Assembly: GCA_017460065.1 (NCBI GenBank)
Contig: JAFUBT010000002.1
Span: 124,001-188,000 of the forward strand
DNA: 64,000 bases
Source of the DNA: Candidatus Saccharimonadota bacterium
GTDB lineage: Bacteria > Patescibacteriota > Saccharimonadia > Saccharimonadales > Saccharimonadaceae
Direction of reading: 5' to 3'
Shown: piece by piece, positions 23,095 through 44,437 of the stretch
How positions within the stretch are numbered: position 1 is the first letter of the stretch
Layout: each line of letters starts with the position of its first letter
The notes under the pieces: model-generated
Databases searched by the model: none
What the model was told of the DNA's origin: nothing
What the model saw: only the letters and a program-made list of their open reading frames with translations
Translations under genes and position numbers: made by a program

Positions 23095-25488
23095 TTAACT
23101 CATATCTTCGGCTCGAATCATCGCCGCATTAATATGAATCGTGCCTCCAGCGCTCACCGTACCAGCCAAAACTGCTTTTGCAATAATATTCTCAATCGTA
23201 CTCTGAACCACGCGACGCATCGGCCTTGCCCCCATCTGCGGGTTGTAGCCACGACTTACAAGAATCTGCTTTGCGTCATCATTAACATCGACAGTAATCT
23301 TCTGCGGTTCAAGGGACTTATTGACAGCCTGCAATACTAAATCAAAAATCTGCCCCAAATCTTCCATCGATAACGGCCTAAAAATACAAATTTCATCAAA
23401 ACGGTTCAGGAACTCCGGCTTAAACTCGCCGCTAGCAATCAAGTCGTTCGTCATTTGCTCTTTGAGGTTATCAAAATTATCGCCCCGGTCAATAAACGTT
23501 CGCACTCGGTCGGCCCCCGCATTGCTCGTTGCAACCACAATCGTATCGCGGAAGCTCACCTCGCGGTTCTTAATATCACGCAAAACACCTTCATCGAGTA
23601 GCTGCAACAGGGTAGTTAATACTTTGGGGTGAGCCTTTTCGATTTCATCCAGCAGCACGACTGCAAACGGCCGCTTCATAACCTGCGCCGTTAGGCTATG
23701 TTCGTTTTCGGCGCCGTCGGCAATTAAACGCTCAACGCTATCCTCAGTTACGTACTCGTTCAAATCTATGCGAATCATTGTCCCCTCGCCTTGGAAGTAG
23801 ACATCACTAATCGCTTTCGCGAGCTCGGTTTTGCCTACGCCAGTTGGCCCCAAGAAGAGAAAAGTCCCAATTGGCCGGTTCTCATTGCGCACGCCTGCCG
23901 CCGAGCGTCGCAGTGCATTCGACACCGCCCGCACGGCTTTCTGTTGGCCAATCATTCGTTCATGAATCAAGGCTTCCATATTCAGCAAGCGTTGGCGTTC
24001 GTAGTCGTCTTGCGAGGCTTGCATTTTAATGCCGTAAGTTTTCTCGATAGCGAGTTGTACTGATTCGGCTGTCACCGAGCCGTCTTGCGCAAAACCCGCC
24101 GCTGCTTCGAGTAAGTTCAACGCTCGCCCCGGCATTACCATGTCGTGAATGTATTTTTCGCTCAGGCGATAGGCTTCTTTTAGCGCCCAAATCGTGAAAA
24201 CAACATTGTGTTCGTATTCAAAATATGGCACGCGGTCCTGTAGAATTCGCATGGTCTCGGCCGGTGTGGACGGTGCAACCATGATTTTGTTCAGCGCATT
24301 CGTTAGTTGGCTATTCTTGGCCTCAATTTCCAAAAAGCGTTGCTGCTCCATGGTTAGAATCATCCGTAGTTTGCCGGCTTGAATCACTGGTAGAATCACC
24401 TTTGAAATATCTACCGATCCTACTCCCTCCTCGAAGAACATTTGTGCATTATCTAGCCACAAAATCACATTCTTTGCCGCATAGGCTTCGTTCATAATTT
24501 GCATCACAATCCGTTCGAGCTCACCACGCTCACTCGCCGCACTCACGAGCACTGAAGCATCTAACTTGAATACCTGACGGTATTTTAACTTGCCAGGGAT
24601 TTTGCTGTCCGCATTGAGTAGTTCCGCCGCAAAGGCATTCACGATAGTTTTGCGCCCGCTACCTTCTGCGCCAATCAGTGCAGCGTTTTGACGGCCACCG
24701 TGCGAGAAGATCCGCACCATTTCATCGATTACTTCCTGACTCGAAGCTTGATTAACCATGATATGCGCGCCCTCAATGGTCTGCGAAATATTCTGCGCAA
24801 AACGCTGCAACAGTGGCGTGTAGCCAAAACTCAAATCACGCCCCAGACCACCGGTGCGACGCGGTTGTTTCATGCCTTTGACGACGCCGTGCAGATAATT
24901 GTACCAACGCACGCCATCGTACAAGTCTGCCATCTCGAGCTTCATGGCGCGCAGGATTTCGTCGTGGCGCGGGTTGCATTCAACAATCGCCAAAGCCAGC
25001 ACGCCGCCCGAAATATGTTGCGACTGCGTCAATTCGCGCACTTCGTAGGCTTTTGCAAAGACCTCGTCGGTAGTCAGCTCCACGCCCTTCGCAAAGCCTT
25101 CAATAAATTCTGGCAGCATCCCGTAACGATTCGCTAAGAACCGGCCGCTCACTGTATTGCTGGCCGCTTGCGCGAGGCTCTGCACGGTCGCCTTGCGCGG
25201 AATCCCCGCCAAGCAACGCCGCGAAATTATATTATTGATGTCGTCTTCGTTGCGCGTCGGTAGCGGTAGGAGTTCGTTGCGCACCCAAACCAGGAACATC
25301 CAAATCGTCACTGCTGCCCCAGCAAACAGCCAACCCAGAGCACTACCGCGGTCCAGAATAATGAAAGCGAACACGAAACCCGCCACGACGCATACTCCCA
25401 GCAATAGCCGGAGCGCCTTTTGGTCAAAAACCTGTGCGATGCGCGCTTCTTTTGCTCGGACGTGGTTGTGGTTGAATTTCGTTATCAT
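23095..25488 (-). CDS. Membrane-anchored Clp-family AAA+ ATPase
   Basis: A 797-residue ClpC/ClpB-like unfoldase. The N-terminus has two membrane helices (about 27-70) in place of the usual start. AAA domain 1 has an altered Walker A, GAEGSGRKT, with an extra residue before the Lys-Thr, and Walker B-like ILWLDNAQMF. AAA domain 2 is canonical: GPTGVGKT, VVLLDEIEKAHP, sensor ATSNAG and GARPMRR. Such membrane-tethered Clp proteins occur in Saccharibacteria and relatives; they probably disassemble or deliver membrane substrates. No ClpP tripeptide was identified. It overlaps the upstream membrane gene by four bases. Confidence 0.87.
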   Translation of the reverse strand: MITKFNHNHVRAKEARIAQVFDQKALRLLLGVCVVAGFVFAFIILDRGSALGWLFAGAAVTIWMFLVWVRNELLPLPTRNEDDINNIISRRCLAGIPRKATVQSLAQAASNTVSGRFLANRYGMLPEFIEGFAKGVELTTDEVFAKAYEVRELTQSQHISGGVLALAIVECNPRHDEILRAMKLEMADLYDGVRWYNYLHGVVKGMKQPRRTGGLGRDLSFGYTPLLQRFAQNISQTIEGAHIMVNQASSQEVIDEMVRIFSHGGRQNAALIGAEGSGRKTIVNAFAAELLNADSKIPGKLKYRQVFKLDASVLVSAASERGELERIVMQIMNEAYAAKNVILWLDNAQMFFEEGVGSVDISKVILPVIQAGKLRMILTMEQQRFLEIEAKNSQLTNALNKIMVAPSTPAETMRILQDRVPYFEYEHNVVFTIWALKEAYRLSEKYIHDMVMPGRALNLLEAAAGFAQDGSVTAESVQLAIEKTYGIKMQASQDDYERQRLLNMEALIHERMIGQQKAVRAVSNALRRSAAGVRNENRPIGTFLFLGPTGVGKTELAKAISDVYFQGEGTMIRIDLNEYVTEDSVERLIADGAENEHSLTAQVMKRPFAVVLLDEIEKAHPKVLTTLLQLLDEGVLRDIKNREVSFRDTIVVATSNAGADRVRTFIDRGDNFDNLKEQMTNDLIASGEFKPEFLNRFDEICIFRPLSMEDLGQIFDLVLQAVNKSLEPQKITVDVNDDAKQILVSRGYNPQMGARPMRRVVQSTIENIIAKAVLAGTVSAGGTIHINAAMIRAEDMS

Positions 25489-25868
25489 AGTTTAACTCCC
25501 ATGACGCACAATACGACGCAGACAACTGGTATTAATGGAATGAGTGGCCAAATTAGCACTAGTATCAAGCTTAACGCGGCTTCGGCGACGATAGCGATTG
25601 TGCCGAAGAATAAGATACCCAGCCGGACAATTGCCCCGATGCAGCGCGAGAGCAACCGATCAAAGAAATTCGCCAGCATACTTGCTGGGTCGCTGGCGTC
25701 AGTGCGCTGCGCGGAGATTTGGCGAAACGGCGCAAATAACGTTTTAATGAGTTGTGAAATCGAAAAGAAATCAGCGGCGTTACGCAATTTATCAATCAAC
25801 TTGCGCGCAAACAGTCCCCACCCCCGCGTGTACCACCACTTCAAAAAGTCGACAATCAGCATAAGCAT
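25485..25868 (-). CDS. Small membrane protein coupled to Clp ATPase
   Basis: A 127-residue protein with an amphipathic, basic N-terminal half (FLKWWYTRGWGLFARKL) and two membrane helices in the C-terminal half (about 75-120). I do not know its family. Its stop overlaps the start of the membrane-anchored Clp ATPase (four bases), which implies that the two proteins form one membrane complex; that is inference. The internal ATG two codons downstream is an equal start candidate. Confidence 0.75.
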   Translation of the reverse strand: MLMLIVDFLKWWYTRGWGLFARKLIDKLRNAADFFSISQLIKTLFAPFRQISAQRTDASDPASMLANFFDRLLSRCIGAIVRLGILFFGTIAIVAEAALSLILVLIWPLIPLIPVVCVVLCVMGVKL

Positions 25869-28829: not shown

Positions 28830-28996
28830 TGTCGTCCTTTAGTTTTATCTTTGCAATCTACTAATTATCCTAACATATTTTAGTCCATTGCGCAAAGCAG
28901 CGTGACAAAATTACCCCATATCGCAGCTTGACAAAAGCATAAACAATATGATACAGTACCCCCAAACTAACAAAAATAAAAAGGTCCAAACAAAAT

Positions 28997-29593
28997 ATGA
29001 AAAAACAGAAAAACCTACAAATTGCAACGCTCGCAGTGCTAGCCTTCGCCGTTTTGTTTATGGCAATCGGTTTCGCTGCCTACGCGCAGACACTTAAAAT
29101 TAGCGGTACGGTCAATGTCAAAAAATCTGCCTGGAGCGTCCACTGGGACACGGATAAGTTCACCCTCGAAGATGATAGTGAGGAGGTTACGCATACTCAA
29201 TTTACTGACACTCAACTAACTTTCCAATGTACTCTGCCAGAGCCGGGCAAATATTGTGCCTTTACAATCGACGCCATTAATGAGGGCACCTATGATGCTA
29301 AACTCTCTAGCATCGATATGGGCATCACTGGCGACGCTGATTACGCCAATTATCTCACGTATAAAATCTATTACAATAACGCCACCACTCCATACACTCA
29401 ATCTACGTCGAATATTACCGGTATTACCTTGTCTAAAGCCAGTGGTGATCCTGCTGTCGCCGGTCGTCATCCAGTCCTCGTTCGCGTCGATTACGTAGCA
29501 CCAAACAACGAAACTGGCGAAGGCCTGCCCACGACCGACAAAACCATTACCGTCACGGCAAACTTCCACTACGACCAGGTAACTACCAACTAG
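28997..29593 (+). CDS. TasA/camelysin-like exported protein
   Basis: A 198-residue protein with a basic N-terminus, a hydrophobic segment (about 9-30, ending GFAAYAQTL) and a beta-rich domain with one Cys pair. The layout, a short exported beta-sandwich protein directly upstream of a SipW-like signal peptidase, is that of TasA/CalY proteins, which assemble into extracellular fibres in Bacillus. Sequence similarity is only general, so the call leans on context. The gene is preceded by AAAAAGG and an AT-rich leader and separated from the peptidase by 40 bases. Confidence 0.65.
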   Translation: MKKQKNLQIATLAVLAFAVLFMAIGFAAYAQTLKISGTVNVKKSAWSVHWDTDKFTLEDDSEEVTHTQFTDTQLTFQCTLPEPGKYCAFTIDAINEGTYDAKLSSIDMGITGDADYANYLTYKIYYNNATTPYTQSTSNITGITLSKASGDPAVAGRHPVLVRVDYVAPNNETGEGLPTTDKTITVTANFHYDQVTTN

Positions 29594-29633
29594 AATAACC
29601 ATTAATTGGTCGCAACTAATCTAAAATACTTTC

Positions 29634-30788
29634 ATGCTGGCTAGGCTTCAAAGGAACGAAAGAGTAGTTTTTGGCATTTGCCTTGCTTTTTCGTTCCTTT
29701 TGCTGGCCGCTTTTGGCTTTGGTCGCCACATGAATCCGTTGACGCGGCAATATATCATTGCACTCGTGCTTGCCGCTATTACGCTTGCCGCCTATTATGG
29801 GCTTGGCATCCGTAAAGATCGCAATTATTTACGCGGTGCCGCGACTTTTAGCGTCGTCGCCGTACTGCTCATTTATGCCGTGCTGAGTTTCGCGGCAGGG
29901 ATTTTTCTCGGCTTTAACCGTGGTTATTTCTCGACTGACCTCGGGGTGCTTTTCTCGGCCTTTGTGCCAACGTTGTTACTGGTAGTCGCCGTCGAGCTAT
30001 TACGTTATCTTATCTCCGCCCAATATTTATATAGCCGGCGTTCGCTTGTCGTTTTTACGGCGCTAGCTGCGCTGCTATATATCTTGGTTGAATTGCAGGG
30101 GGCCAACTTGGCTAGCCTCGAGTTAGTTTTTGTGTTCGTTTGCACGACGGTCTTCCCGATTATTGCTAGGGAAGCACTTTGTGCGTACCTGTGCCATCGT
30201 GCTGGCTTACGTCCTACGCTCATCTATAAACTGGCCGTGACGATGTATCCGTTCCTGTTGCCCATTGTGCCGGCATTGGGCGATTATTTGCATTCCGTCG
30301 TGAATGTAATGGTGCCATTCGTCATTTATCTTGTTGTGCTGCGCAGTGCGCGTTTTTATGACCAAGACCGCAAGCGCTTGCGTGGTATGAACTATCGTCT
30401 TGTCGCAATACCACTACTGGTCGTTGCTAGTATTTTGACGGCCCTAATTTCCGGTCTGCTGCCGTATCAGCTAATCGCCATAGCATCGGACTCGATGCGC
30501 CCTGTCTACGCTCGGGGTGATGCGGTGATTTTCGAAAAAGTAAGCGCAACCGAAATCGCAAAGGATGATATACTAGTATTCAGCAAAGACAGGGCAATCA
30601 TGACGCACCGCGTCGTCGCCATCGAGAACCGCGATAATACTTTGTACTTTACAACGCGTGGCGACAACAACGAAAAGCCGGACGGCTTCGAAACCTCCGC
30701 AGAGCAGGTTTTGGGGCGGGTGGTCTCCGTTGGAAAATACATTGGTTTTCCGACCGTTTGGTTAAGCGAGGCTTTTAATAATGGCTAG
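29634..30788 (+). CDS. SipW-like signal peptidase I with polytopic N-terminus
   Basis: A 384-residue S26 peptidase. About eight membrane helices occupy residues 10-275; the catalytic part follows, with Ser287 in ASDSMRP and His325 in MTHRVV. A His in place of the bacterial Lys marks the SipW/endoplasmic-reticulum type of signal peptidase, which in Bacillus processes TasA. A TTRGDNNEKPD element closes the active site. The large polytopic N-terminus is unusual, since SipW alone has about 190 residues. A TAAAAT box ends six bases before the ATG. The stop overlaps the DUF5305 gene by eight bases. Confidence 0.88.
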   Translation: MLARLQRNERVVFGICLAFSFLLLAAFGFGRHMNPLTRQYIIALVLAAITLAAYYGLGIRKDRNYLRGAATFSVVAVLLIYAVLSFAAGIFLGFNRGYFSTDLGVLFSAFVPTLLLVVAVELLRYLISAQYLYSRRSLVVFTALAALLYILVELQGANLASLELVFVFVCTTVFPIIAREALCAYLCHRAGLRPTLIYKLAVTMYPFLLPIVPALGDYLHSVVNVMVPFVIYLVVLRSARFYDQDRKRLRGMNYRLVAIPLLVVASILTALISGLLPYQLIAIASDSMRPVYARGDAVIFEKVSATEIAKDDILVFSKDRAIMTHRVVAIENRDNTLYFTTRGDNNEKPDGFETSAEQVLGRVVSVGKYIGFPTVWLSEAFNNG

Positions 30789-31875
30789 GATTAAAAAAGC
30801 AAAACGACAGAATGACATCGAAGCTCGACACATCTCCAAGTGGTGGCTGGTTTTTGCTGCCGTTGTCGGCCTGATCGGCGCTGCGCTATTAATCTTCGGC
30901 TTGACCGACAAAACCGAACTTACGGTATCGTATAGCGAATCTGGTTCAGGCGTAGATTATCGGGTGTATTTGTTGCCCAACAACAGCTACGCCGAGAGCT
31001 ATATATACGGCACGAGCGACCGCTCATATCCTACTAGCCTCATTAAGTATCTTGACTTAGCTTTCAACTACTCGGTACATTTTGATGCACCGGTCGAAGG
31101 TGAGCTGCGCTATAAAATGGTCGCCCTGACTAGCGCCGATAAAGTCGATAACACCAACAGCGCCCGTCTATGGTCAGACGAGCAGGGGCTCTATCCGGAG
31201 CAGAGCGTCAATATTAACGGTCAGACGCTTTCCATCCGCGAGTCGGCCAAGATCGATTACGACCAATACGCCAACATGATTCGTCGTTTCGAGTCCGAGG
31301 CGCAGGGCGTCAGCGCCAAAGGCAGTCTGAACGTCGCCATGATTATTAGTGGCTCGGTCAAGCCTGAGAACTTCGAAGTGGCCGTTCCGCTTGATTCGCG
31401 CGTAGATTTTATTATTCCAATCGCAAGCAACTCTTCAGTCGAGGCCAAAACCAGTGTGAAAAACGGCGCCGATGCCACTTTAAGAGCTAGCACCGATAAC
31501 CTAGAACGGGCGCATCTCGTCAGCATTATTTCTGGGGCAGTGTTACTGGCCATCGCCGCTGGCGTCGGGATATATTGCTTCGTGACTCATCGCTTGCGAT
31601 TACGCGCACATCCATACGAGACTAAGGTTAAGCACCTGCTCAGTGCCTATGATGGCGTGATTGTCGAAACTAGCCGTATCCCGAGCGCGCGCGACAAGAA
31701 CATCTCCGATGTGGCTGATTTTGATGAATTGCTCGATGTATATAATTCTGTGCACTTACCCATCAACTATTACCACGATCGTAACAAGAGTTATTTTGTT
31801 ATCAGCGGTGACAAAAACACCTGGCGCTACATCATAAAAAAGAGTGATTTTGGCAAGCATGGCCAGAAAGACTAA
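30781..31875 (+). CDS. DUF5305-family membrane protein
   Basis: A 364-residue protein: one N-terminal membrane helix (about 20-42), an outside beta-rich domain (about 45-240), a second helix (about 245-268) and a cytoplasmic C-terminal domain. DUF5305 proteins are known mainly from archaea and some bacteria beside SipW-like peptidases and TasA-like proteins; function is unknown. The overlap with both neighbours (eight and about seventeen bases) shows tight coupling with the peptidase and the Hint protein. Confidence 0.75.
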   Translation: MARIKKAKRQNDIEARHISKWWLVFAAVVGLIGAALLIFGLTDKTELTVSYSESGSGVDYRVYLLPNNSYAESYIYGTSDRSYPTSLIKYLDLAFNYSVHFDAPVEGELRYKMVALTSADKVDNTNSARLWSDEQGLYPEQSVNINGQTLSIRESAKIDYDQYANMIRRFESEAQGVSAKGSLNVAMIISGSVKPENFEVAVPLDSRVDFIIPIASNSSVEAKTSVKNGADATLRASTDNLERAHLVSIISGAVLLAIAAGVGIYCFVTHRLRLRAHPYETKVKHLLSAYDGVIVETSRIPSARDKNISDVADFDELLDVYNSVHLPINYYHDRNKSYFVISGDKNTWRYIIKKSDFGKHGQKD

Positions 31876-34327
31876 AAAACGCTACAAGATGCCGCTTATC
31901 TTGGCGGGATTAGTTTTGTTGCTCCTGTCTGGCATGACTATCGGTTTTGCACGCTACAATCGTATCCTGCAGCTCGGCGGCGATGTCTCGCTCAAAAGTC
32001 AAGGCGATGTTTATATCTCAGACGTGACCTTTACGGGCGGCCAGAACGTGACCAGCAATCCGAGTTTCACCGACACGACGGTCGATTTTAGTTTAGACTT
32101 TTATGGCGGCGAGGACGTGACAGAGTATAGTGCTAACTTTAGTATCACAGTTACCAACGAAACCTTTTATGATCAGATTTTTTCGATGAACGATTGGCGG
32201 CCCACCATTACGGATGGAGATGGCAATGTTGTGGCGGACGTTGATATTAATTACGTGCTAAATGGCATCCAGAACGGTGACACTATTGCCAAAGGTACGA
32301 GCAAAACCTTTACGGTCGCCATTACGATGACGGCGCCACCAGGTGAATATCATGTAGACGGCAGCACGGGTGTTGATTTTACTGACTCTAATACCGGTGT
32401 TGTCTTGGCGGCTGTGTCGAACCCGACCACCGGTGATTTGCGTGGCAGCAATCAGTACGCCGCTTTTACCGTGCACGTCACAAATACCTATGATTACGCC
32501 CAGACTTTCTCGCTTGAACTGCAGGGCAATAGTCATTTTCGGCTGAGCGGCGCCAACGGCGCTAGTCTTGGAACTTTCACGATTGACGCGAATAGTGCCG
32601 CCGATTATGCAGTCTACGTTAGTGCTGTCGACGGCGTAACGTTTAGCAATTCATACGAGCGAGCCAATATCTACCTGAGCTCCGCTGCGTTGGGCGATAT
32701 TAACTGCGGCCGTATTACATTGTTGGTAGACCAGGTGGTGATTCCAACCGACACCGAGGCGCCGGTTATTTCCAACGTTAGGATGCAGATGCTCGACTCA
32801 GTTGGCCAAGCCAAGCTGACGTGGGATGCTGCGGACGAATCGCAAATTGATCACTTTGTCGTGTTGGTTTACACTAGCGGCGATGTGCTCAAGCAGACCA
32901 TCACTACTGAGGACGACGCTACCGAGCTAACGATTTCTGGCCTTGGTGATGGCAATTATTATGTCAAAGTTTACGGTTTTGATACCGCCTCGCCTCAAAA
33001 TTCTGCCAACGAAGACGAAATTGCGGACGCTAGCACGTCGGCCGGACATTGCGCGCGCTCGGCGACAACTTATTTTGATTGGCATTTTACGGTCACTTAC
33101 GATTTAACCGGTTTGTCAACCAATGGCGCCGGTACGGCCACTCGCGGTACAACCTACACGGCAACTTTGTCCACCACGTCTAATCGCACGGCTTTACCGA
33201 CTTCGATTACTGTCGTCATGGGCACTTCTACGCTACGTGTCGGTACTGGCTATACCTACAACTCAGACTCGGGCGCGATTTCCATTCCTAATGTCTCGGG
33301 GGATATTACCATCCGAGGCGAAGCCCGCAGCTGTCTAATTGAGGGCACGGATATCTTGTTGGCTGATGGTAGCACCAAGAAGGTCGAAGATATTAGCTAT
33401 GACGATCTGTTGGCAGTTTGGAACTATGATACCGGCCGTCTTGACGCCGCCTATCCAATCTGGATTGAGCGCGAACATCATACGAAGTCTTATCAATGGG
33501 CACATTTTGCTGACGGCAGCGACCTGCGCACCTCGGCCGAGCATGGTATCTTTAGCGTTGAGCAAAATCAGTTTATATCTGTCAAAAGCGCCGACTTCTT
33601 GCCCGGCACGCATTATTATCGCGTTAATGCGGCCGGCGAGCTAGACTCCGTTGCGCTCGAAAGCGTCGCTAATATCACTGAGTCGCGCAGTTATTATCAT
33701 GTGGTCACGGCCCGCTACTACAACGTTATTGCCAATGGTTTCATTACGACCGATGGTACGGTGGCTTTGTCGAACCTTTATGGCTTTGCCGATAACATTA
33801 GCTGGCCGGCGGTGCGCACGCAGCTGCTCGCCGACCCGGCGAACGTAGTGGATTATGACGCGTTCGCCGACATCGTCCCGCAATACATGTACGTGGGCAT
33901 GCGCATGGGCGAGATTGGTGTCCTAACGCGGATGGGCGCCCTGAGCCTCACCGATTTCCGTAACTACTTGCTCGGTAGCCAGCTTAACCCGCTGATGGCC
34001 GCCAAACCCGAGTTAATGAATTTTGATGTTTCGCATCTGCGCTCGCCTGAAATTTACCAGAACCGGCGACTCTGGCCAGTGTCGTTTGGTGCACTGGATG
34101 CGGCCGCTGAGCGCGCCGAAGCTCCGCAAGATTCGGCATGGTCGGTCGTAGTATCTAGCCAACGAATGGTCGCCGAAGGCCAGCAGATTATTTTGCCAGA
34201 GCAGAGTGGTGTTGCGGCTTGGCATAATTCCGTTGACGGTCAGGATTATCCACCCGGCGCCGCTGTAACAATTTACTGCGGCACGCACTTTACGCCTCTG
34301 CGGTCGTCACCGCTTGTCAAAAAGTGA
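31859..34327 (+). CDS. Exported multidomain protein with self-processing Hint domain
   Basis: An 822-residue protein. N-terminal membrane/signal segment (about 10-28), two TasA-like beta domains (about 35-300), a fibronectin-III-like domain (about 305-395), a small beta domain (about 405-490) and then a Hint domain. Its putative nucleophile is Cys492 in RSCLIEGTDILLADGS, with the block-B Thr-x-x-His motif as TSAEHGIF (His562). Hint domains break the peptide bond before the Cys, as in hedgehog proteins and inteins. The usual C-terminal His-Asn of inteins is absent, so N-side cleavage alone is expected. About 150 residues follow the Hint core. A GTG at 31844 is the alternative start. Confidence 0.82.
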   Translation: MARKTKKRYKMPLILAGLVLLLLSGMTIGFARYNRILQLGGDVSLKSQGDVYISDVTFTGGQNVTSNPSFTDTTVDFSLDFYGGEDVTEYSANFSITVTNETFYDQIFSMNDWRPTITDGDGNVVADVDINYVLNGIQNGDTIAKGTSKTFTVAITMTAPPGEYHVDGSTGVDFTDSNTGVVLAAVSNPTTGDLRGSNQYAAFTVHVTNTYDYAQTFSLELQGNSHFRLSGANGASLGTFTIDANSAADYAVYVSAVDGVTFSNSYERANIYLSSAALGDINCGRITLLVDQVVIPTDTEAPVISNVRMQMLDSVGQAKLTWDAADESQIDHFVVLVYTSGDVLKQTITTEDDATELTISGLGDGNYYVKVYGFDTASPQNSANEDEIADASTSAGHCARSATTYFDWHFTVTYDLTGLSTNGAGTATRGTTYTATLSTTSNRTALPTSITVVMGTSTLRVGTGYTYNSDSGAISIPNVSGDITIRGEARSCLIEGTDILLADGSTKKVEDISYDDLLAVWNYDTGRLDAAYPIWIEREHHTKSYQWAHFADGSDLRTSAEHGIFSVEQNQFISVKSADFLPGTHYYRVNAAGELDSVALESVANITESRSYYHVVTARYYNVIANGFITTDGTVALSNLYGFADNISWPAVRTQLLADPANVVDYDAFADIVPQYMYVGMRMGEIGVLTRMGALSLTDFRNYLLGSQLNPLMAAKPELMNFDVSHLRSPEIYQNRRLWPVSFGALDAAAERAEAPQDSAWSVVVSSQRMVAEGQQIILPEQSGVAAWHNSVDGQDYPPGAAVTIYCGTHFTPLRSSPLVKK

Positions 34328-34635: not shown

Positions 34636-35562
34636 TTATATAATATCTCCGTCTATTATTCTATGCACTTTGTATACCTGGGGCTCTTTAGCCCATTCTT
34701 CAGATAGAAATATTTTTTCGTATGGATTATTAATTAAGATTATTTCGTCTGACTCTCGAATATAGATATAGAGATAATAACTTTCGCCTTTTTCTTTTGC
34801 TATTCTTAATTCGTTGCTAGAAAGATAGAAAGCTTGTTTTTTGTCATAACAGCTTTTAACCTCGATGAACTTATCGAAACAAGTGCTTTCTGGGGATAAG
34901 TAAGAGACTAAATCATATCCAGCGCTCACATCGATATCAGATATTATTTTTGGCGTTTTCAGTATTCCGCGTTCGGATAGTATCTTGATTTCATATTCGT
35001 ATGCTTTTCTTTCGCCGATTTCTCCATGTATTTTCCTTAGCGCAAGTTCGTTTTCGAGCTCTATTAGGCCGATAATTCTTCTCGAATCTGATGGGCCGTG
35101 ATTTGAGGAAACTTCTTTCAACAGACCTTCATCAAATAAATAAATCCTATTCGGCATAACTTGGATAAAAGATAGGTCACTCAACAGCATTATTAAACCA
35201 GAGTAGTTTAAATCTACTTTATTTCTCGAAATATAGAATAGATTTCTATTTTCGTCGTACTTTTTATCTAGCGATAAAACCATTCTGATTTCGTCAGAAT
35301 AAATAATACGAATCATTTTTAGAAGTTCCTTTGAGAACCCATCAATGCTAGATAACTGCTTTGCTTTTGAGAATAACTCATCTCTCTCTGCTATGAGTTC
35401 ACATTTTTCAAGTACCGTTATAGAATTGTCTCTGGATATTGGGTCGTAGCCGCTATTATGCAAATCAATGTCATTATTAATACTATCGCCAATTTTACGA
35501 TAAAGGGAATAAAGGTTGTCTAGGCTTAGCAGTTTTATTAGCTCTTTATTTTCTCGATTCAT
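34636..35562 (-). CDS. DUF3883-domain protein
   Basis: A 308-residue protein and the last gene of the five-gene operon. The C-terminal third matches the DUF3883 pattern: AGYDLVSY, FIEVKSC, SSNELRIAKEKGESYYLY. This domain has the layout of a PD-(D/E)XK nuclease fold (GYD...EVK) and is frequent in defence loci, often next to or fused with helicases. The N-terminal two thirds are helical with no domain I know. It overlaps the SNF2 gene by 17 bases, so a shared function is likely. Confidence 0.82.
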   Translation of the reverse strand: MNRENKELIKLLSLDNLYSLYRKIGDSINNDIDLHNSGYDPISRDNSITVLEKCELIAERDELFSKAKQLSSIDGFSKELLKMIRIIYSDEIRMVLSLDKKYDENRNLFYISRNKVDLNYSGLIMLLSDLSFIQVMPNRIYLFDEGLLKEVSSNHGPSDSRRIIGLIELENELALRKIHGEIGERKAYEYEIKILSERGILKTPKIISDIDVSAGYDLVSYLSPESTCFDKFIEVKSCYDKKQAFYLSSNELRIAKEKGESYYLYIYIRESDEIILINNPYEKIFLSEEWAKEPQVYKVHRIIDGDII

Positions 35563-37489
35563 AATATGCCCTTATTATTGCTTTAATATCATCATCGGTA
35601 TCGTCTATAAAATCGGCATTTTTTGCGAGGAGAGGAATCTCTTCTTTTTCTATAAGGTCCAGCATTTTACTTTCTTTTTGTAGCACTCTAGAGAATATCG
35701 TTTCGTCGACAGTGCCATTTGATTGGATGTAATAGTAATTTGTTGCTGTTCCTTCCGGGAGACCTACGCGATGAATTCTATCTTTTGACTGCATATATGA
35801 TCCGGCGTTAAAGCCTTGTTCTAGATAGATGGCATTATGACATCCTTTATGGAGAGAAATAGATTCGCCAACGGCATGTGGGTTCGCAATTACAACAGAA
35901 AAATCTCGATTATTTGGATTTGCGAATTTTATAATAGTGTCTTCTCTTTCTTCTTGAGGTGTTGCGCCGTATAGAATTCTATGAGGAATGTTAGATTTGC
36001 TAAGATATCCACCAAAATCGTTACATGTTCCGACAAATTCAGCCCACACTATAACTTTGCCATTGTTCGTAAGTATTTTTTCAATAACGTCTTTAGCAAC
36101 AATAAATTTGTTTGGTATTTCAAGTTGTTTGTATTGTCTAACTAGGTCCAGTGTTTCATTTGATAAATCGACGGTATTATCGAGCTTAACTTTCTTAAAG
36201 AAGTCGCCTTCTAAGCTCTCGAAATAGTCATCAAGTGGTTTAACTAATAGAGAAGGGTTTGTTGCGGCTTGACGCATGCGGATAGCTGCGGATCTTGCAA
36301 AGATTTTACCTAACTCTCCTCGTTCGATTTTACGGATTGAATTATATGCTAACTCTTCGTATATCTTTGCTTGTATTGGAGACATTTGAATATTGATTGG
36401 TGGGTTAAAGATTGGTTCAGGTAACCCTAAGTCGCTTTTCTTTACGCGTATAAAGAAAGGCGCAATCCTTCTTGTCAAATCATCGACTCTGTCGTCCGGA
36501 TTCCGGCTCATATTTCCTAATTGGGAAATAGAATAGCCAATTATATTTTTTGATGGCCAAATGAACTTATAGAGGTTAACTAAATCAATATAACTATTGG
36601 CCGCAGGTGTACCTGTTAGAATTACTCTAGCTTTTGCGTACTTTGATAGTTTTAGGGCAGCGAAACTTTGTATGCCATCCTCTGTATTTTTTATCCTATG
36701 CGCTTCGTCAAGAACTACCATTGCTCGGTTATATTTCAAGAATTCTTGCAAAATATCTATTTTTGACGGAACGCTGCCGTAGCTCACTATTACTAGGTCG
36801 TAATCGACATAATCCTTTAACAGTGCATTTTCTACGGCATTATTATTGATTCCGCCGCGAATTTCTAGGACTTTCGGCTTATATCCAAAGCACTGTTCAT
36901 ACTCGCTTTTCCAGGCGACGAAAGCAGCTAGTGGCCCGACGACAAGGAGTTTATCGACATGCTTTGTTTCGTCTGGCGTTTTATTTAAATAATGAAATGC
37001 GGATAATACTGTTGTGGTTTTTCCGGATCCAGGAACGGAAAAATTACAAGCATTTTGAGAAAACGCGAGATGATATGAAGAAAGTAATTGATATGGCATC
37101 AGCGTGCGTTTAAAAACGTTGTCGGATAACTTTTGGACAAAATCATCTAATTCTTCATTACTAATAGCGTTATTGCGTATAGCGTATGCATGATTCGAAA
37201 AAATCGAGAATTTTCTTTCCTCGTTTTCTGCTTCTAATAGCACACCTTTTGAGTTGTCGTCTAGCACGATTTTACACCCTAAGCGTTTCTCCAGAATATC
37301 CGTTATCTTGGAATAAATATTAGTAGCATCAGATTCGTTAATCGGAATATGTGCTTTATTATCGTCCAGCCACGATCCGCTAAAATTACGTAAGTATATT
37401 TTTAATTTTGGTACGGAATTAATATCAAAATCAAGGGGCTCAATAATAAAAGCTTTGCTTGATTCGTTTGTCTTAATTCTCGCCTGCAC
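35546..37489 (-). CDS. SNF2-family DNA translocase/helicase
   Basis: A 647-residue superfamily 2 ATPase. It has Walker A VPGSGKTTTVLSAFHYL, DEAH box VVLDEAHRIKN, motif III LTGTPAAN, and C-terminal helicase motifs IVWAEFVG, HAVGESISLHKGC and QSKDRIHRVG. The N-terminal 140 residues are a separate domain. The start is GTG, two bases after the ParB-like stop, without its own ribosome site, so it depends on coupled translation. SNF2 ATPases in restriction loci (for example the NgoAVII/CglI type) move along DNA to activate a partner nuclease. Confidence 0.9.
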   Translation of the reverse strand: MQARIKTNESSKAFIIEPLDFDINSVPKLKIYLRNFSGSWLDDNKAHIPINESDATNIYSKITDILEKRLGCKIVLDDNSKGVLLEAENEERKFSIFSNHAYAIRNNAISNEELDDFVQKLSDNVFKRTLMPYQLLSSYHLAFSQNACNFSVPGSGKTTTVLSAFHYLNKTPDETKHVDKLLVVGPLAAFVAWKSEYEQCFGYKPKVLEIRGGINNNAVENALLKDYVDYDLVIVSYGSVPSKIDILQEFLKYNRAMVVLDEAHRIKNTEDGIQSFAALKLSKYAKARVILTGTPAANSYIDLVNLYKFIWPSKNIIGYSISQLGNMSRNPDDRVDDLTRRIAPFFIRVKKSDLGLPEPIFNPPINIQMSPIQAKIYEELAYNSIRKIERGELGKIFARSAAIRMRQAATNPSLLVKPLDDYFESLEGDFFKKVKLDNTVDLSNETLDLVRQYKQLEIPNKFIVAKDVIEKILTNNGKVIVWAEFVGTCNDFGGYLSKSNIPHRILYGATPQEEREDTIIKFANPNNRDFSVVIANPHAVGESISLHKGCHNAIYLEQGFNAGSYMQSKDRIHRVGLPEGTATNYYYIQSNGTVDETIFSRVLQKESKMLDLIEKEEIPLLAKNADFIDDTDDDIKAIIRAYYESRK

Positions 37490-37491
37490 TA

Positions 37492-38787
37492 TTAATCAAT
37501 CCTTTGTTTTATTCGCCCTATTTCTTGTTGAATCTGTCTTACGTTGTCAACCAACTCTTCTGGATATTCCTCGTGATGTTCAAGTTCGTCACTAAGTTTT
37601 TTGACTTTTTGAAGAATTTGATTGGAAATGTTTAGTGGCGTCTCTTGTAATTCCTGGTTAACGTATTTTGCGTTAAGTGCTCCATAAATATCGTTGAGAA
37701 CTGCAGCATTCTTGTCTTTATAGTCTCTATTGCGACGTTTCGATAATTCACTTTCGGTTAAATCTTCAAAATCGTCCCTATAGTCTTGGAACGAATCAAC
37801 GCTCTCGAGCTGTTGTTCGACGCTATTATTAAAGCTATGCCAGTCTTTTTCGTCTCTAAATGCTTTTTTGAAAATACGGAAATCATGTGTAGGCTGATCT
37901 TTGCGAATATAGTCGAAGAACCTACATTTCAAATCCGCCAAATCGTTTTCGTCATACGCCCATGTTGCTGCGCTACTGCCGCGGCCATTTTTAAGACTGT
38001 TATAGTCTAGCCTAAGCCTCAGAAATGCCTCTTCTTTGCCTTCAAGGGCCGTAAAGATGCCTTCCTCACCTACATAATCGAGGTACTCTTCCATTAATCC
38101 ATAAACTTCGAGCCATTTTTCAACTTCTTTTGGGTTTCCACCAGTTAGATTGCTGAAATTATCTGCTATCTCTTTAGTAGTAAAGCCTAGCTTTTTCTGG
38201 GTGTCCGCTGCTATATATTTCTGGATAGGATCGTAATCCGCTTTATCTTCTGCGCCATATTGATAGAAAGACTCATAGCGTATAATTCCTTTTTGGTCTA
38301 GCTCCTCGTCGAGGATTGCGGCTTCAAAGTAATCAAGCCCATCTAGATTAGTACGATTTGATTCGTATTTGGATTTATTTCTTGAAATCTCGTTTAGAAG
38401 CCTAAAGCGTCTGTTGCCAGACAGAATAACGCCTTCAATCGTGACTACCCCAGGTATTAGCTGGCCTTCTTTAATGAGAGAATCAATAGTGCTATTATTC
38501 TTGGCTTCTTTTTCTTCCCAGATAAATTCTTCAATTTTTTTTACGTCTTCAGGGTCATCATCACGCAGTTGTCTTCCTAACTTTTTTTCAAGTGTTCTGG
38601 CTTGCGCTAGGAAACGCGTATTGTACGGGTTATAAGAGAGATATTGCAGAGGAATCCTGTACACGTTTTGTACGCCTCTTCCAGGGACTTTAACCGTGCT
38701 AATTATTTTTCCGCTGTCTTTAATCTCTTGGAGTTTTGCTCTGCGAGCTTCTCTTGTTTGTGGAAAATCCTTTCCGATTTCAGCCAT
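37492..38787 (-). CDS. ParB/sulfiredoxin-fold protein of the defence operon
   Basis: A 431-residue protein. Residues about 45-150 have a ParB-like layout: YNPYNTRF, SLIKEGQLIPGVVTIEGVILSGN and GNRRFRLLNEI, the last matching the ParB GxRR box that binds nucleotide. The rest is charged and helical, with a coiled C-terminus ending QQEIGRIKQRID. ParB-fold proteins in defence loci may act as nucleotide-driven switches or as nucleases; which applies here is unknown. It has an AAAGGA site and is 14 bases from the methyltransferase stop. Confidence 0.75.
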   Translation of the reverse strand: MAEIGKDFPQTREARRAKLQEIKDSGKIISTVKVPGRGVQNVYRIPLQYLSYNPYNTRFLAQARTLEKKLGRQLRDDDPEDVKKIEEFIWEEKEAKNNSTIDSLIKEGQLIPGVVTIEGVILSGNRRFRLLNEISRNKSKYESNRTNLDGLDYFEAAILDEELDQKGIIRYESFYQYGAEDKADYDPIQKYIAADTQKKLGFTTKEIADNFSNLTGGNPKEVEKWLEVYGLMEEYLDYVGEEGIFTALEGKEEAFLRLRLDYNSLKNGRGSSAATWAYDENDLADLKCRFFDYIRKDQPTHDFRIFKKAFRDEKDWHSFNNSVEQQLESVDSFQDYRDDFEDLTESELSKRRNRDYKDKNAAVLNDIYGALNAKYVNQELQETPLNISNQILQKVKKLSDELEHHEEYPEELVDNVRQIQQEIGRIKQRID

Positions 38788-38801
38788 ATTAAATCCTTTC
38801 T

Positions 38802-40025
38802 TTAATTAGCCTCGTTTTTAATAATTTCGTCTAAATGTTTTCCCATACGTGTAATCATTGGTACGACTAGTGCGTTTCCCATGCAGAAATAACGCATCCT
38901 TTTTGGCATTCCAGTATCCGTCCAATTGTCATCAAACCCTTGAAGACGCTCCGTCTCTTTCGGCGTCAATATTCTTAGTTTTCCGGTTTTAATGTCTTTG
39001 ATGACATGGCTGCTTCTATTTAGGGTCGACTCGCTAGTCAGCATAGTCCTGCTTGGCAAGTCTAATGAGTCGGGGAACGAAATTGCGCCTTCTGAAAAGA
39101 TATATTTAAACCCTGTTTTCGCTGTTCTCTCGATTTTCTTCGCGCCTTTCATATATTTCCACTTTTCCATTTTGTCTTCTGGTATAAAGAACTCGTCAGA
39201 GACTTTTCCTTTTTCGACAATCTTTTTAAGTAAAATAGGTTTTTCCTCAAGCGCTGAAGCTTTAGTAGTAAAAATGCGCCCACTCTTCATTACTCCAGAA
39301 TTTTGAAAGTCGAACTTAAATCTATCGGATACCGAAGTTATTTTCTCGTATAAATCTGCTTGTTTGTCGAGCTCGGTCTTTTCTATAGGAAATACACTGG
39401 CGAAGAACCCATCCTTTTTCACTGTAGATTCTAATTCATCCTTTTTATGATTCTTTGCATATTTAGTATTGTTTTTGTATGCAAATATGAACGTTCTTCT
39501 ACGCCTTTGGGCGGCCCCGTATTGCGCAGCATTCACGACTCTCCATTCGACTGAGTAACCCAATGAATTGAAGCAGGCTAACATAACAGCGAAATCTCGT
39601 CCTCGTTGTTTGGATGGAGATTTCAATAATCGATCTACATTCTCAAAAAGGCAGAAAGGGGGCTTTTTAATCTTTAAAATTTCATATATTTGCCACCACA
39701 AGACGCCTTTTTTACCGCGAATTCCTTTTTCCGATGAAAGACCATGGGCAACGGAATAGTCTTGGCATGGGAAACCGCCGACTAGTAATGTGTGGTCGGG
39801 GATGTTTTTCTTTTTTACCTCGGCTATATCAATACCAGTTGTGTATTTACCAGCTAAATCTTTTATATCGCCGAAATGCGAAACATAGCAATCGTGAGCC
39901 CACTGTTTGCTTGCTCCAGGCTCCCATTGGCTAAACCATGTCGTCTTCCAGCCGCTGTTTAAGCGTTCCAGGCCCACTCTAAAACCGCCAACTCCAGCAA
40001 ATAATTCACAAACTGTCTTTTTCAT
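38802..40025 (-). CDS. DNA (cytosine-5) methyltransferase
   Basis: A 407-residue C5-methylase with motif I CELFAGVGGFRVG, motif IV VGGFPCQDYSVAHG (catalytic Cys), motif VI FENVDRLL, motif VIII QRRRRTFIFAY and motifs IX-X LTPKETERLQGF with GNALVVPM. It would methylate a specific DNA target and protect the host from the paired nuclease. The target sequence cannot be read from the protein. Its ATG overlaps the stop of the upstream putative restriction gene (ATGA), so nuclease and methylase are made together. Confidence 0.95.
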   Translation of the reverse strand: MKKTVCELFAGVGGFRVGLERLNSGWKTTWFSQWEPGASKQWAHDCYVSHFGDIKDLAGKYTTGIDIAEVKKKNIPDHTLLVGGFPCQDYSVAHGLSSEKGIRGKKGVLWWQIYEILKIKKPPFCLFENVDRLLKSPSKQRGRDFAVMLACFNSLGYSVEWRVVNAAQYGAAQRRRRTFIFAYKNNTKYAKNHKKDELESTVKKDGFFASVFPIEKTELDKQADLYEKITSVSDRFKFDFQNSGVMKSGRIFTTKASALEEKPILLKKIVEKGKVSDEFFIPEDKMEKWKYMKGAKKIERTAKTGFKYIFSEGAISFPDSLDLPSRTMLTSESTLNRSSHVIKDIKTGKLRILTPKETERLQGFDDNWTDTGMPKRMRYFCMGNALVVPMITRMGKHLDEIIKNEAN

Positions 40026-40750
40026 AGGAATGCCTCGCTTAGCAATCTTCTTAAAACATAGTCTCCTCGTAACCAGACAAATTGTTGGTACATATTAATT
40101 CCGGAGATACAGATTGGTTTTACGCTTGAATCGACTCCGCCGCCTCTAATGAATACGATTCCATCAGATGACTTAGGGAAGTTTGGTGCACTCCGTATAG
40201 TACCGGATGGATTAATGACAGGGTCGACATATTTATCTAGTGCCGGGACGTCTTTTAGGTGCCCGCTAAATATAGTGTTACGCATGGCGCTCCAGACTTT
40301 TTCGACCTGAGTCATAATAAATAAATCGTCAAATTCTAGTACTTTAAAACCAAGGAATATACAATCGCCGTTGTTGTAGTTTTTCTTATCTGGAAATTCG
40401 TACATAGCATACACGAACACGTTATATTTAAAGTACTTATAAAATTGTGATTGCCTGAAAGATACTTCTTTATCTAATAGATTGTCGAAATCCACCATAA
40501 AGAGTTTATTGTCGAATTTTTTATTTCCTTCTTTGGTAGAGCCTATCGTCTTTAAAGTGATGCTTTTCCGAGTTTCTTTTTCTGCTATTATGATTGAATT
40601 GCCTATCATCTTTTCTACAACTTTCCGAATGGATGATTTCGAAAACAAAAATAGCTCATCCTCAAATCCAAAAAAATGAGCCAACTCTCCGATGGTTTTC
40701 ATGGAGTATTTGTTAGATAGGGAGCGACATGTTTCGTTTAGGCTTTCCAT
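40022..40750 (-). CDS. Putative type II restriction endonuclease (MutH/Sau3AI-like, tentative)
   Basis: A 242-residue protein, the first gene of the operon. The region KSITLKTIGSTK, then SQFYKYFKYNVFVYAMYE, is laid out like the MutH/Sau3AI family, where an E-x-K motif in ELKTI is followed by the substrate-binding region and a large-scale Tyr/Phe block. Here the motif reads T-L-K, so one catalytic acidic residue is missing or displaced. The call rests on this resemblance and on overlap with the methylase gene. It could instead be an accessory DNA-binding protein. Confidence 0.5.
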   Translation of the reverse strand: MESLNETCRSLSNKYSMKTIGELAHFFGFEDELFLFSKSSIRKVVEKMIGNSIIIAEKETRKSITLKTIGSTKEGNKKFDNKLFMVDFDNLLDKEVSFRQSQFYKYFKYNVFVYAMYEFPDKKNYNNGDCIFLGFKVLEFDDLFIMTQVEKVWSAMRNTIFSGHLKDVPALDKYVDPVINPSGTIRSAPNFPKSSDGIVFIRGGGVDSSVKPICISGINMYQQFVWLRGDYVLRRLLSEAFL

Positions 40751-40844
40751 TGCTATTGTCCTAGTTGCTGCGGTTAAAACGCTCGTAACTTTTTCACAAC
40801 TACTTTCTGGTTCAGACGATTCCTACATGGCAATCCAACAAAAT

Positions 40845-40985
40845 TGGACGCTGTAGCAAGCGTCCAAACTTTTTAACAACAGAGCGATAGCGCCCTATTG
40901 TCCACAGCATCCAACTCTAGACGCTATCAAGACAACAGAGCCTATTCTCTGTGTTATCGTTGTTGTTAAAATAATAAAGTTTGGA
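40845..40985 (-). ncRNA. Structured leader RNA of the restriction-like operon
   Basis: Reading the minus strand: P1 pairs GTCCAAACTT...TTTAACAACA (40985-40960) with TGTTGTTAAAAAGTTTGGAC (40880-40861); inside it are hairpins ACAGAG/CTCTGT (40951-40934) and GATAGCG/CGCTATC (40927-40885), a three-way junction. A following hairpin GGACGC/GCGTCC (40864-40845) shares the bases GGAC with P1, so the two are mutually exclusive. A TATAAT (40992-40997) places the start of transcription at about the first base of P1. The operon ATG is at 40750. Confidence 0.65.
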
Positions 40986-40991
40986 CACCTT

Positions 40992-40997
40992 TATTAT
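40992..40997 (-). promoter_or_regulatory. -10 box of the restriction-like operon
   Basis: Minus-strand TATAAT within an AT-rich tract, seven bases before P1 of the leader RNA. No good -35 is visible, so control by an activator is possible. Confidence 0.5.
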
Positions 40998-41061
40998 AAT
41001 ATAAAAACACCTTAAACGCGATCCGCTAGATGCATAATCTTTTCTATAATCTGGCGAAGTA

Positions 41062-41259
41062 CTATAGCTCTCGCCACTCTGTTGCTTTATTGCTCGGTTT
41101 CGTAATGGCGATTTGTCTGAATTGACATTCGCCGGGATCTAGGACGAATTCGCCTAACTTGTATTTTTGCTCGGCTATTTCATAGGCCTCTTCGGCACTG
41201 TCGGCTTCGATTTCGAAGTATTTAGCGACGGTTTCTTCTATTGTGATCGTATATTTCAT
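41062..41259 (-). CDS. DpnD/PcfM-like small protein
   Basis: A 65-residue protein of the DpnD/PcfM type: MKYTITIEETVAKYFEIEAD, then the SAEEAYEIAEQKYKLGEFVL helix-strand block. The family is named for a gene of the DpnII restriction locus and for PcfM of a conjugative plasmid; its function is unknown. It lies upstream of, and apart from, the restriction-like operon promoter. No ribosome site is seen; an inverted repeat TGATC/GATCA lies just before the start. Confidence 0.72.
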   Translation of the reverse strand: MKYTITIEETVAKYFEIEADSAEEAYEIAEQKYKLGEFVLDPGECQFRQIAITKPSNKATEWREL

Positions 41260-41382
41260 GATCGGAGCTTATGATCATTTTCGGCAAAAGTCCACAATAT
41301 TTCACCGCTCCGTGTCAAGAAAAAATCCCACCCCTATTTTCTGCACAATAACTTTCAAAACCCGATTGTGTCCAAGTGGATG

Positions 41383-41847
41383 CTATCTATTGACTAAATG
41401 GCAGAATGTTTTGTTAGAATCGTTGCCGTAATGGTTGATATCTTCCGGCTCAGCCCAAAGCGAAAGCTTGTGGACGCGCCACTTGCCAATGAAGAACATT
41501 TGAACTATCGCGTCATTCACGTCGCGGTTATTTAGCGCGCGTGGAATGTATGCGAGGGAAAAGTAGTACCATTTGTCGTCTTCGGCGTCCAACCTCGCAA
41601 AAACGCGCTTACCGCGCCCAAAAAGGCGCACATCAAAGCGCTGTGCTAGTGTTTCTAGGGAATAAGTCTTTAATTCATGGATCGCGTCGCGAATAGACGA
41701 TTCCACTAGTTCCATACGTTCAAACTTGTCGTAATCGCGTGAATTAAACCTGCCATTATGTTCGAGCATAAAGCTTTCAAGTCGCCGAGCGGTAACCGGT
41801 ATTGGCTCGCCGGGTTTAGTTTTCTTGAATGGGTGGCGTTTTGCCAT
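41383..41847 (-). CDS. Hypothetical basic protein
   Basis: A 154-residue soluble protein rich in Arg/Lys and aromatic residues. I recognise no family. The start at 41847 (MAKRHPFKKTKPGEP) is chosen over an upstream one at 41919 because GAGG lies five bases before it. It shows a helical N-terminus and a Trp/Tyr-rich C-terminal half (DKWYYFSLAYIPRAL). It is on the same strand as the DpnD-like gene. Confidence 0.6.
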   Translation of the reverse strand: MAKRHPFKKTKPGEPIPVTARRLESFMLEHNGRFNSRDYDKFERMELVESSIRDAIHELKTYSLETLAQRFDVRLFGRGKRVFARLDAEDDKWYYFSLAYIPRALNNRDVNDAIVQMFFIGKWRVHKLSLWAEPEDINHYGNDSNKTFCHLVNR

Positions 41848-41948
41848 AATAGCCTCGTTTCTTTGAGGTTGCGCCTTGTGTCGGCGGTAATGTATAGTTT
41901 CCAAATCTATACTTACCAAAATATTTTTGCGTTCTTACATTATTTTTA

Positions 41949-41963
41949 GTATGTATATACAAT
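41949..41963 (+). promoter_or_regulatory. Probable HxlR operator upstream of the 41993 gene
   Basis: The palindromic GTATGTATATACAAT shares TATGTATATA with a site upstream of the hxlR-like gene (44122-44133). It lies just upstream of a TATTAT -10 region. Confidence 0.5.
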
Positions 41964-41992
41964 TATTATAGCAATTAAACAAAGGAAGAATT

Positions 41993-42775
41993 ATGGAATA
42001 TAAAGAAACTACTCTTGCAACCGGAAAGGTGCGAGTTTATACTTTTGGCGAGTTAAAGCTACATGCTTATGAAACGAGTGATGGCCTTGCTGACGAATGC
42101 TACATTGTCGAGTCAAAGAACGAACTTGTCGGCATTGAGATTCCTACTTTCGAGGCGAACATTAAAGAATATAAGGATTACGCAGAATCTCTCGGTAAGC
42201 CTCTAAATAATATTTTTGTCGATCTTCATCCAGTCGGCGCAAGCTTCTTCGAGGGCGTGAAATTTATCGGCACAAAAGGCGCTAAAGAAGCAATCGCAAG
42301 CGGTTCTACTCGCGGCACCATTAACTTCCTTTCTGGTATGCCAGGCTTTAATGCAGAAGATATTGCTGACATCTCAGAATTCGTTGATGGCAAAACTGTA
42401 ATTGACGGCGTCGAATACGAAATCAAAGATTACGGTGACGAATACGACATCATCATTCCTGCTATGAATGTTGTCTATACTCACATGCTCGGCTCTACCG
42501 TCCATTCTATTGTGGCGGGCGTGGCTGGTGCTGACGCTATGCTTGAAAAACTAAATGGCTATAAGAAAGTCGGCTACGACCTAATTCTTACTTCTCACTT
42601 CGTACCGGAAGGCCAAGAGGCGGTCGACGTAAAAATTGCGTATGTTGAGAACGAAAAGAAAATCGCTAGCGAATCCAATGATGCTGAGGAATTTAAGGCC
42701 AAGATGAAAGAAGCTTACCCAGATTACCTTGGTGAAAACTACTTGGATATGTCTGCAGGCTTCTTCTTCGCCTAG
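41993..42775 (+). CDS. Degenerate metallo-beta-lactamase-fold protein
   Basis: A 260-residue protein that reads like an MBL-fold hydrolase (ECYIVESKNELVGIEIPTFE, HPVGASFFEG, TSHFVPEG) but lacks the HxHxDH zinc motif: the loop is FVDLHPVGAS. It is therefore likely non-hydrolytic, binding a small ligand or acting through another residue. AAAGGAAG precedes the ATG. It is divergently placed from the HxlR regulator's cluster and carries a matching operator, so regulation by that HxlR protein is likely. Confidence 0.65.
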   Translation: MEYKETTLATGKVRVYTFGELKLHAYETSDGLADECYIVESKNELVGIEIPTFEANIKEYKDYAESLGKPLNNIFVDLHPVGASFFEGVKFIGTKGAKEAIASGSTRGTINFLSGMPGFNAEDIADISEFVDGKTVIDGVEYEIKDYGDEYDIIIPAMNVVYTHMLGSTVHSIVAGVAGADAMLEKLNGYKKVGYDLILTSHFVPEGQEAVDVKIAYVENEKKIASESNDAEEFKAKMKEAYPDYLGENYLDMSAGFFFA

Positions 42776-42818
42776 AATAGTTAAACCAAAATACCGAGCT
42801 TTTCTTGCTCGGTATTTT

Positions 42819-43784: not shown

Positions 43785-44101
43785 AACTGTTCCTTATAAT
43801 ATTCGCCAAACTTCTGCATTGATTCGATTGTTGGCCAGAGTGATTTTCCGAGCTCAGTCATGCTATATTCTACTTTTGGTGGTATTTCTGGATAAACTTT
43901 GCGAGCTACTAATCTATCGTCTTCTAGCGAACGTAATGCGTCGGTTAGTGATTTCTGTGTAGCACCCAGACTGCGTTGTAGTTCATTAAACCGCCACGGA
44001 CGCGACATAAGATTGCGGATAATTAAAAGCTTCCACTTACTACCAATCAAGCTAACCGTTGTAGCTACTGGACATTCTGGCAAATCCTTGAGTTTCTTCA
44101 T
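43781..44101 (-). CDS. HxlR-family transcriptional regulator
   Basis: A 106-residue winged-helix regulator: CPVATTVSLIGSKWKLLIIRN, FNELQR, GATQKSLTDALRSLE and a beta-wing VEYSMTELG. Cys10 is at the place used for redox sensing by HypR/HxlR members. It is the first gene of an operon with the DUF1848 gene, and a palindrome before it suggests autoregulation. HxlR proteins usually respond to aldehydes, disulfide stress or toxic metabolites. Confidence 0.92.
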   Translation of the reverse strand: MKKLKDLPECPVATTVSLIGSKWKLLIIRNLMSRPWRFNELQRSLGATQKSLTDALRSLEDDRLVARKVYPEIPPKVEYSMTELGKSLWPTIESMQKFGEYYKEQL

Positions 44102-44104
44102 AAT

Positions 44105-44432: not shown

Positions 44433-44437
44433 TTAAT

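Follow-up and report, generated by a model that had tools for sequence, protein, structure and literature searches.

What is a Hint domain, the fold of inteins, bacterial intein-like (BIL) domains and hedgehog proteins, doing in a set of genes that resembles the operons for TasA-type surface fibres? The locus that raises this question lies in a stretch of 64,000 nucleotides (nt), here called the window, from a Candidatus Saccharimonadota bacterium (assembly GCA_017460065.1, contig JAFUBT010000002.1, positions 124,001 to 188,000), in which four tightly packed genes on the + strand, at window positions 28997-34327, encode a TasA-like protein, a SipW-like signal peptidase, a DUF5305 protein and a Hint protein. 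TasA-type fibres and Hint domains of the B-type BIL or hedgehog Hog kind are each known, while their combination in one conserved operon appears to be new. The reading that we find rather probable is that of a TasA-type surface-fibre operon with an accessory self-processing subunit.

A four-gene unit found in two phyla

The features of the locus, with coordinates in the window, are the following.

28928..28957, + strand: promoter-like site TTGACA-18-TACAGT with an extended TG, 40 bp upstream of the first gene
28997..29593, + strand: TasA-like secreted fibre-subunit candidate of 198 amino acids (aa); predicted cut A27/A28-Y29, beta-sandwich 48-198
29634..30788, + strand: SipW-like signal peptidase of the endoplasmic reticulum (ER) type, 384 aa; polytopic membrane domain 1-255, catalytic domain 256-384, Ser287/His325
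30781..31875, + strand: DUF5305 membrane protein, 364 aa; PF17231 match at E 7e-13, two transmembrane (TM) segments by hydropathy, 23-41 and 246-264
31859..34327, + strand: Hint protein, 822 aa from the ATG at 31859 (827 from an upstream GTG at 31844)
33332..33787, + strand: Hint domain, codons 492-643; Cys492, His562 and Asn622, with Asp632 replacing the terminal Asn

The genes lie on one strand with overlaps, at the coordinates given in a preliminary description of this DNA: the TasA-like and SipW genes are separated by 40 nt, while SipW and DUF5305 overlap by 8 nt and DUF5305 and the Hint gene, read from the ATG at 31859, by 17 nt. The numbering of Cys492 and His562 is correct when counted from this ATG. 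The promoter-like site comes from a consensus scan only, which found 20 such sites in the region against 7.1 expected, and counts as weak evidence. The assembly comprises 0.65 Mb in 9 contigs, and the named genomes closest to it belong to Candidatus Saccharibacteria, several of them from goat or buffalo gut; the organism had thus rightly been taken for a member of the Candidate Phyla Radiation (CPR).

We found the order TasA-SipW-DUF5305-Hint complete in 9 genomes of Saccharibacteria and 9 of Bacillota, and 2 further sets are cut by contig ends. Since the gene order is identical in 18 genomes of two phyla, chance is excluded: the four-gene set is real and conserved, and it is common to gut Saccharibacteria, gut Bacilli and Clostridia.

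The TasA-like protein

The leader of the 198-aa protein (GFA/AYAQTL) is of the SipW type. In 21 aligned homologues, Ala27 at P1 is invariant and P2' is Tyr or Phe, with Met in one; the P2' residue of TasA is Phe, and sites of this kind are cleaved poorly by LepB and cleaved by SipW (PMC10269814). Its AlphaFold model (pLDDT 84.8) is a beta-sandwich starting at residue 48, and the ~20 residues that follow the predicted cut are unpacked, as expected of a donor strand.

The evidence for its family comes from sequence profiles. Compared profile to profile, the TasA-like family matches the camelysins (hhalign 91%, E 1e-6), a comparison made without the bridging sequence L126; the latter, from Bacilli, reaches 28.1 bits against the PF12389 (TasA/camelysin, Peptidase_M73) cut-off of 22.5 and matches the TasA-like profile with an E of 2e-27. 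A sequence search of the PDB with that profile gave nothing meaningful, and a single-sequence hhalign comparison with one camelysin carried no useful signal. The 198-aa protein appears homologous to TasA/camelysin, and this is better supported by the bridging sequence and the profile comparison than by its fold.

The peptidase and the DUF5305 protein

The catalytic domain of the second protein scores 78 bits against TIGR02228 (archaeal/ER-type signal peptidase, cut-off 51.85) and matches SEC11A/C structures (E 1e-20), and the Ser287 and His325 of its ER-type Ser-His dyad are invariant in 16 homologues. The ~255 residues in front of it contain about 7-8 hydrophobic segments and give no Pfam match above cut-off; this polytopic domain is common to the SipW of all operon homologues, Bacillota included. 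The protein, enlarged by the additional domain, remains below the cut-off of the NCBIfam SipW equivalog NF046067 (54 bits vs 190). When it was used as query in a plasmid search, only short signal peptidases covering <=29% of its length were found. The third protein exceeds the curated PF17231 cut-off (49 bits > 29). Both assignments of the preliminary description, a SipW-like Ser/His peptidase with a polytopic N-terminus and a DUF5305 protein, are borne out by these matches.

The Hint protein

The fourth protein consists of a TasA-like domain (~34-200), a beta domain (201-296), an FN3 domain (297-409), a second beta domain (410-488), the Hint domain (492-643), a helical segment (644-715) and a variable C-terminal beta domain. 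Its leader is also of the SipW type, with a predicted cut at A31/R32-Y33 and with P1 Ala and P2' Tyr invariant in 8 aligned Hint proteins. The N-domain matches the family of the small TasA-like protein (hhalign 99.2%, E 1.4e-19), and the FN3 domain has a structural match at Z 11, with Pfam fn3 matches in 5/8 homologues; a Foldseek search with the whole protein was swamped by Ig/FN3 chains. The TasA-like, FN3-like and Hint domains that had been recognised from the letters are thus all recovered. The helical segment is kept after Hint in Saccharibacteria and in a stand-alone Hint protein (L083_1), and has 14% identity in Bacillota. No TM segment follows the Hint domain in the window protein. Relatives that differ in their N-terminus and have a TM-like segment on the C-terminal side of Hint are encoded away from any SipW gene at L020:9190-12462 and L021:7932-11210.

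The model of the Hint domain superposes on the BIL2 structure 6y75 with a Z of 13.7 and an rmsd of 2.0 over 122 residues, and nearly as well on the Mtu RecA intein (Z 13.4) and hedgehog 1at0 (Z 13.2), all three superpositions beginning exactly at residue 492. Sequence profiles match it weakly to BIL/intein structures, and no Pfam model exceeds its cut-off on the window domain. In 30 aligned homologues, from Saccharibacteria, Bacilli and Clostridia plus Hint proteins on other scaffolds, Cys492, His562 and Asn622 are each identical in 30/30; the preliminary description had made the conservation of the first two a condition of its proposal.

The site that is His-Asn at the end of an intein reads Thr-Asp-Gly here, with Asp632 in 25/30 homologues and no penultimate His. 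The domain accordingly does not have the C-terminal His-Asn followed by Cys, Ser or Thr of a splicing intein, and the domains upstream of it (TasA-like, beta and FN3) include no Hedge signalling domain, which separates the protein from hedgehogs. The absence of a C-terminal His-Asn is the condition of B-type BIL or Hog domains, in which the N-terminal junction is cleaved without splicing (PMC7765530, PMC7664689). It makes splicing and ordinary C-terminal cleavage unlikely, and N-terminal cleavage or transfer, at Ser491-Cys492, would be expected. The prediction for the Hint domain is that it cuts its own chain or transfers it.

Distribution of the SipW and Hint genes

A polytopic SipW is encoded in 22/45 genomes of the genus and in ~50/394 of the family, and the Hint gene occurs in 7 genomes of the genus, always within the SipW operon. 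In a sample of the phylum, the polytopic SipW was found in 4/380 Patescibacteria genomes, all from the window's own family, and a CPR-wide system is ruled out within this sample. In one Bacilli family, a minority of 193 genomes encode the full-length Hint protein. In the best tree, Bacillota and Saccharibacteria are interleaved, but a tree in which the Bacillota are monophyletic also passes the AU test (p = 0.153), so that the trees neither establish direct transfer between the phyla nor tell which of them had the system first. A phage origin of the Hint protein was rejected: 50,697 phage records contained no match, and one distant match, to Hint only, was found in a 190-kb viral contig.

Other arrangements were also observed. 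At L108, a canonical camelysin (PF12389), a 171-aa SipW and a Hint protein occur together, which, with the 18 four-gene loci, answers the search for recurrent Hint-SipW pairs that the preliminary description had suggested. In gut Bacillota (L109:5890-7890 and L110:5469-6815), type IV prepilin-like N-termini (N_methyl) are fused to the same Hint domain. Because of these camelysin-SipW and prepilin associations, the link of Hint with fibre-forming proteins probably arose more than once. At L083:3-4000, the fibre operon is preceded by a stand-alone 241-aa Hint gene and, before that, by the gene of a large VWA/TSP3-repeat surface protein with a VPNTG-like motif. In one congener (G120), a second core operon contains three TasA-like genes but lacks Hint, and two more divergent TasA-like genes lie elsewhere (L062:7582-11644 and L025:8373-9903 for these loci together).

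Weighing the fibre operon with a self-processing subunit

Several results weigh against this reading and are considered together here. The model of the 198-aa protein matches the TasA fibre 8aur with a Z of 6.7 and an rmsd of 3.1 over 130 residues, but unrelated beta-sandwiches score equally, so the family is not proven by fold alone; moreover, the window protein gives no match to PF12389, and the window proteins miss the NCBIfam SipW-substrate model. The TasA-like identity first proposed for the small protein is supported by the profile and bridging homology. The Hint part of the model is of middling confidence, and low over its last strands (616-649). Block B of the domain is atypical, with Thr at -4 from the His (21/30) and no Thr-x-x-His; for this reason, we file the domain as a BIL-like Hint fold and not as a BIL member. 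The Hint gene is absent from 15/22 core operons of the genus, and two Bacillota Hint proteins (L104 and L105) have no adjacent SipW.

The atypical block B, together with the lack of a C-terminal Asn and the very weak sequence match to Hint models, would suit a catalytically silent domain, kept as a structural or binding remnant. We regard this as distinctly unlikely, given that Cys, His and Asn622 are invariant in 30 otherwise highly divergent homologues.

The core operons without Hint, which are common, indicate that the Hint protein is an accessory and not the fibre itself. They would also fit an independent adhesin, merely another SipW substrate that shares the operon and stays outside the fibre. 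This is unlikely: the Hint protein and the fibre-subunit candidate share a homologous domain, the N-domain of the former, and the full-length protein, wherever its flanks are complete, always follows DUF5305, except at L104 and L105. At L104:6176-8540, two genes, divided just before the Hint domain, together encode the Hint protein; they adjoin a TasA-like gene and have no SipW or DUF5305 next to them.

A possible course of events, and its outcome

The homologies, the conserved operon, the shared leader type, the invariant active site and the Hint fold of the model form the basis on which we infer polymerisation, processing, chemistry and outcome. The 198-aa protein and the Hint protein would be exported with SipW-type signals, and both would be trimmed by the ER-type peptidase encoded between them, as suggested by the site that they share (P1 Ala and an aromatic P2'). 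In the small protein, the newly exposed N-terminus would serve as a donor strand, and homology to TasA, which polymerises by donor-strand exchange (PMC9674648), suggests that the protein may polymerise likewise. The conserved adjacency and topology of the DUF5305 protein point to a membrane-bound assembly or anchoring partner. With its TasA-like N-domain, the Hint protein may itself insert into the fibre as a rare subunit at one end, base or tip; there, an N-S acyl shift promoted by the Hint domain would convert the Ser491-Cys492 bond into an activated thioester. Hydrolysis (release) or transfer to a nucleophile (covalent attachment) would then part the fibre-bound residues 32-491 from the Hint/C-terminal portion.

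In the case of release, Hint would only hydrolyse, so that a large adhesin-like ectodomain would be shed or the fibres cut off from the cell. B-type BIL domains, likewise without the C-terminal motif, do cleave their N-terminal junction (PMC7765530), and in the L020 and L021 relatives Hint is placed between the ectodomain and the TM-like segment, which fits a device for cutting from an anchor and favours separation from it. However, the window protein has no TM segment after Hint, so cleavage would not free it from the membrane, and the kept helical segment suggests a partner or adduct site instead of plain hydrolysis. We hold release to be possible, if tentatively so.

In the case of covalent attachment, the thioester would be attacked by an amine or hydroxyl of the wall, a lipid, another subunit or a partner-cell surface, a cis-acting, sortase-like ligation comparable to that of Hog with cholesterol. 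The equal match of the fold to hedgehog 1at0 points this way, as do the extra conserved segment directly after Hint, where Hog proteins carry their sterol-recognition region (PMC7765530), and the association of Hint with three kinds of fibre or adhesin proteins. Against it, the helical segment is poorly conserved between the phyla and the acceptor remains hypothetical, which leaves this outcome on the doubtful side. Its most specific form, in which a fibre-terminal TasA-like subunit would be ligated to the acceptor by its own hedgehog-like Hint, as a sortase-independent anchoring to cell wall, lipid or partner cell, we consider doubtful.

Neighbouring genes

A Clp-type AAA+ ATPase and a small membrane protein are encoded at 23095-25868, divergent from the fibre operon; they flank the operon in many congeners, and in the window an ABC transporter/FtsX pair sits between them and it. 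Beyond the Hint gene lies a convergent gene (34636-35562), with which begins a stretch (34636-48271) of lower GC content, about 39-41% vs 47-52% around it, that looks like a defence island. It contains a NOV_C protein, an SNF2 helicase, a C5 DNA methylase with a type II restriction enzyme match, a KAP NTPase and a GmrSD-like protein. A DUF1848 protein encoded at 42819-43784 is, by its PADLOC listing, a putative reverse-transcriptase-associated DRT partner.

Comparison with known systems and significance

With the tapA-sipW-tasA operon of Bacillus subtilis, the locus shares a SipW-type peptidase, a beta-sandwich TasA-like subunit, an aromatic P2' signal and probable donor-strand assembly (PMC9674648, PMC10151520). 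It differs in having no TapA, in its extra DUF5305 and Hint genes, in the 255-residue polytopic domain of its peptidase, and in a TasA-like protein below the PF12389 cut-off. The sipW-bsaABCRSD operon of Clostridium perfringens and the sipW-tasA/calY genes of Bacillus cereus with CapP are likewise filament operons that depend on SipW and encode additional secreted proteins as accessories (PMC7395162, PMC13082335); we found no intein or Hint feature reported in either paper, a negative that includes no sequence comparison of the accessory proteins. With B-type BIL and hedgehog Hog domains, the Hint domain has in common the fold, the N-terminal Cys, the invariant His, the lack of a C-terminal His-Asn and cleavage at the N-terminus only, which is predicted here. 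In contrast to them, it is fused to TasA-like, FN3 and beta domains in a SipW operon, has its Thr four residues before the His, not three, and has no known sterol link. The archaeal bundling pili and thread filament (7pnb) are also donor-strand fibres, but the match of the small protein's model to 7pnb (Z 7.0, rmsd 8.0) is not above that of unrelated folds. In the open-access literature, we found no paper that joins TasA-type fibres with Hint/BIL domains or describes this system, and none on DUF5305.

The preliminary description had further proposed host-contact fibres of an episymbiont. A role specific to CPR bacteria or episymbionts does not agree with the occurrence of an identical, identically ordered four-gene set in gut Bacilli and Clostridia, and as a specific claim host contact is unsupported because the system is not CPR-specific. 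Its use by an episymbiont for this purpose is possible; Saccharibacteria already have type IV pili, known surface fibres that drive host contact (PMC12206443), whose subunits and assembly machinery are unrelated to this operon. Beside these pili, the operon proposes a second possible surface fibre for some Saccharibacteria. It also gives DUF5305 a context, and in such a constant operon, next to a fibre subunit and the peptidase dedicated to it, a secreted Hint domain would have a physiological partner that can be tested.

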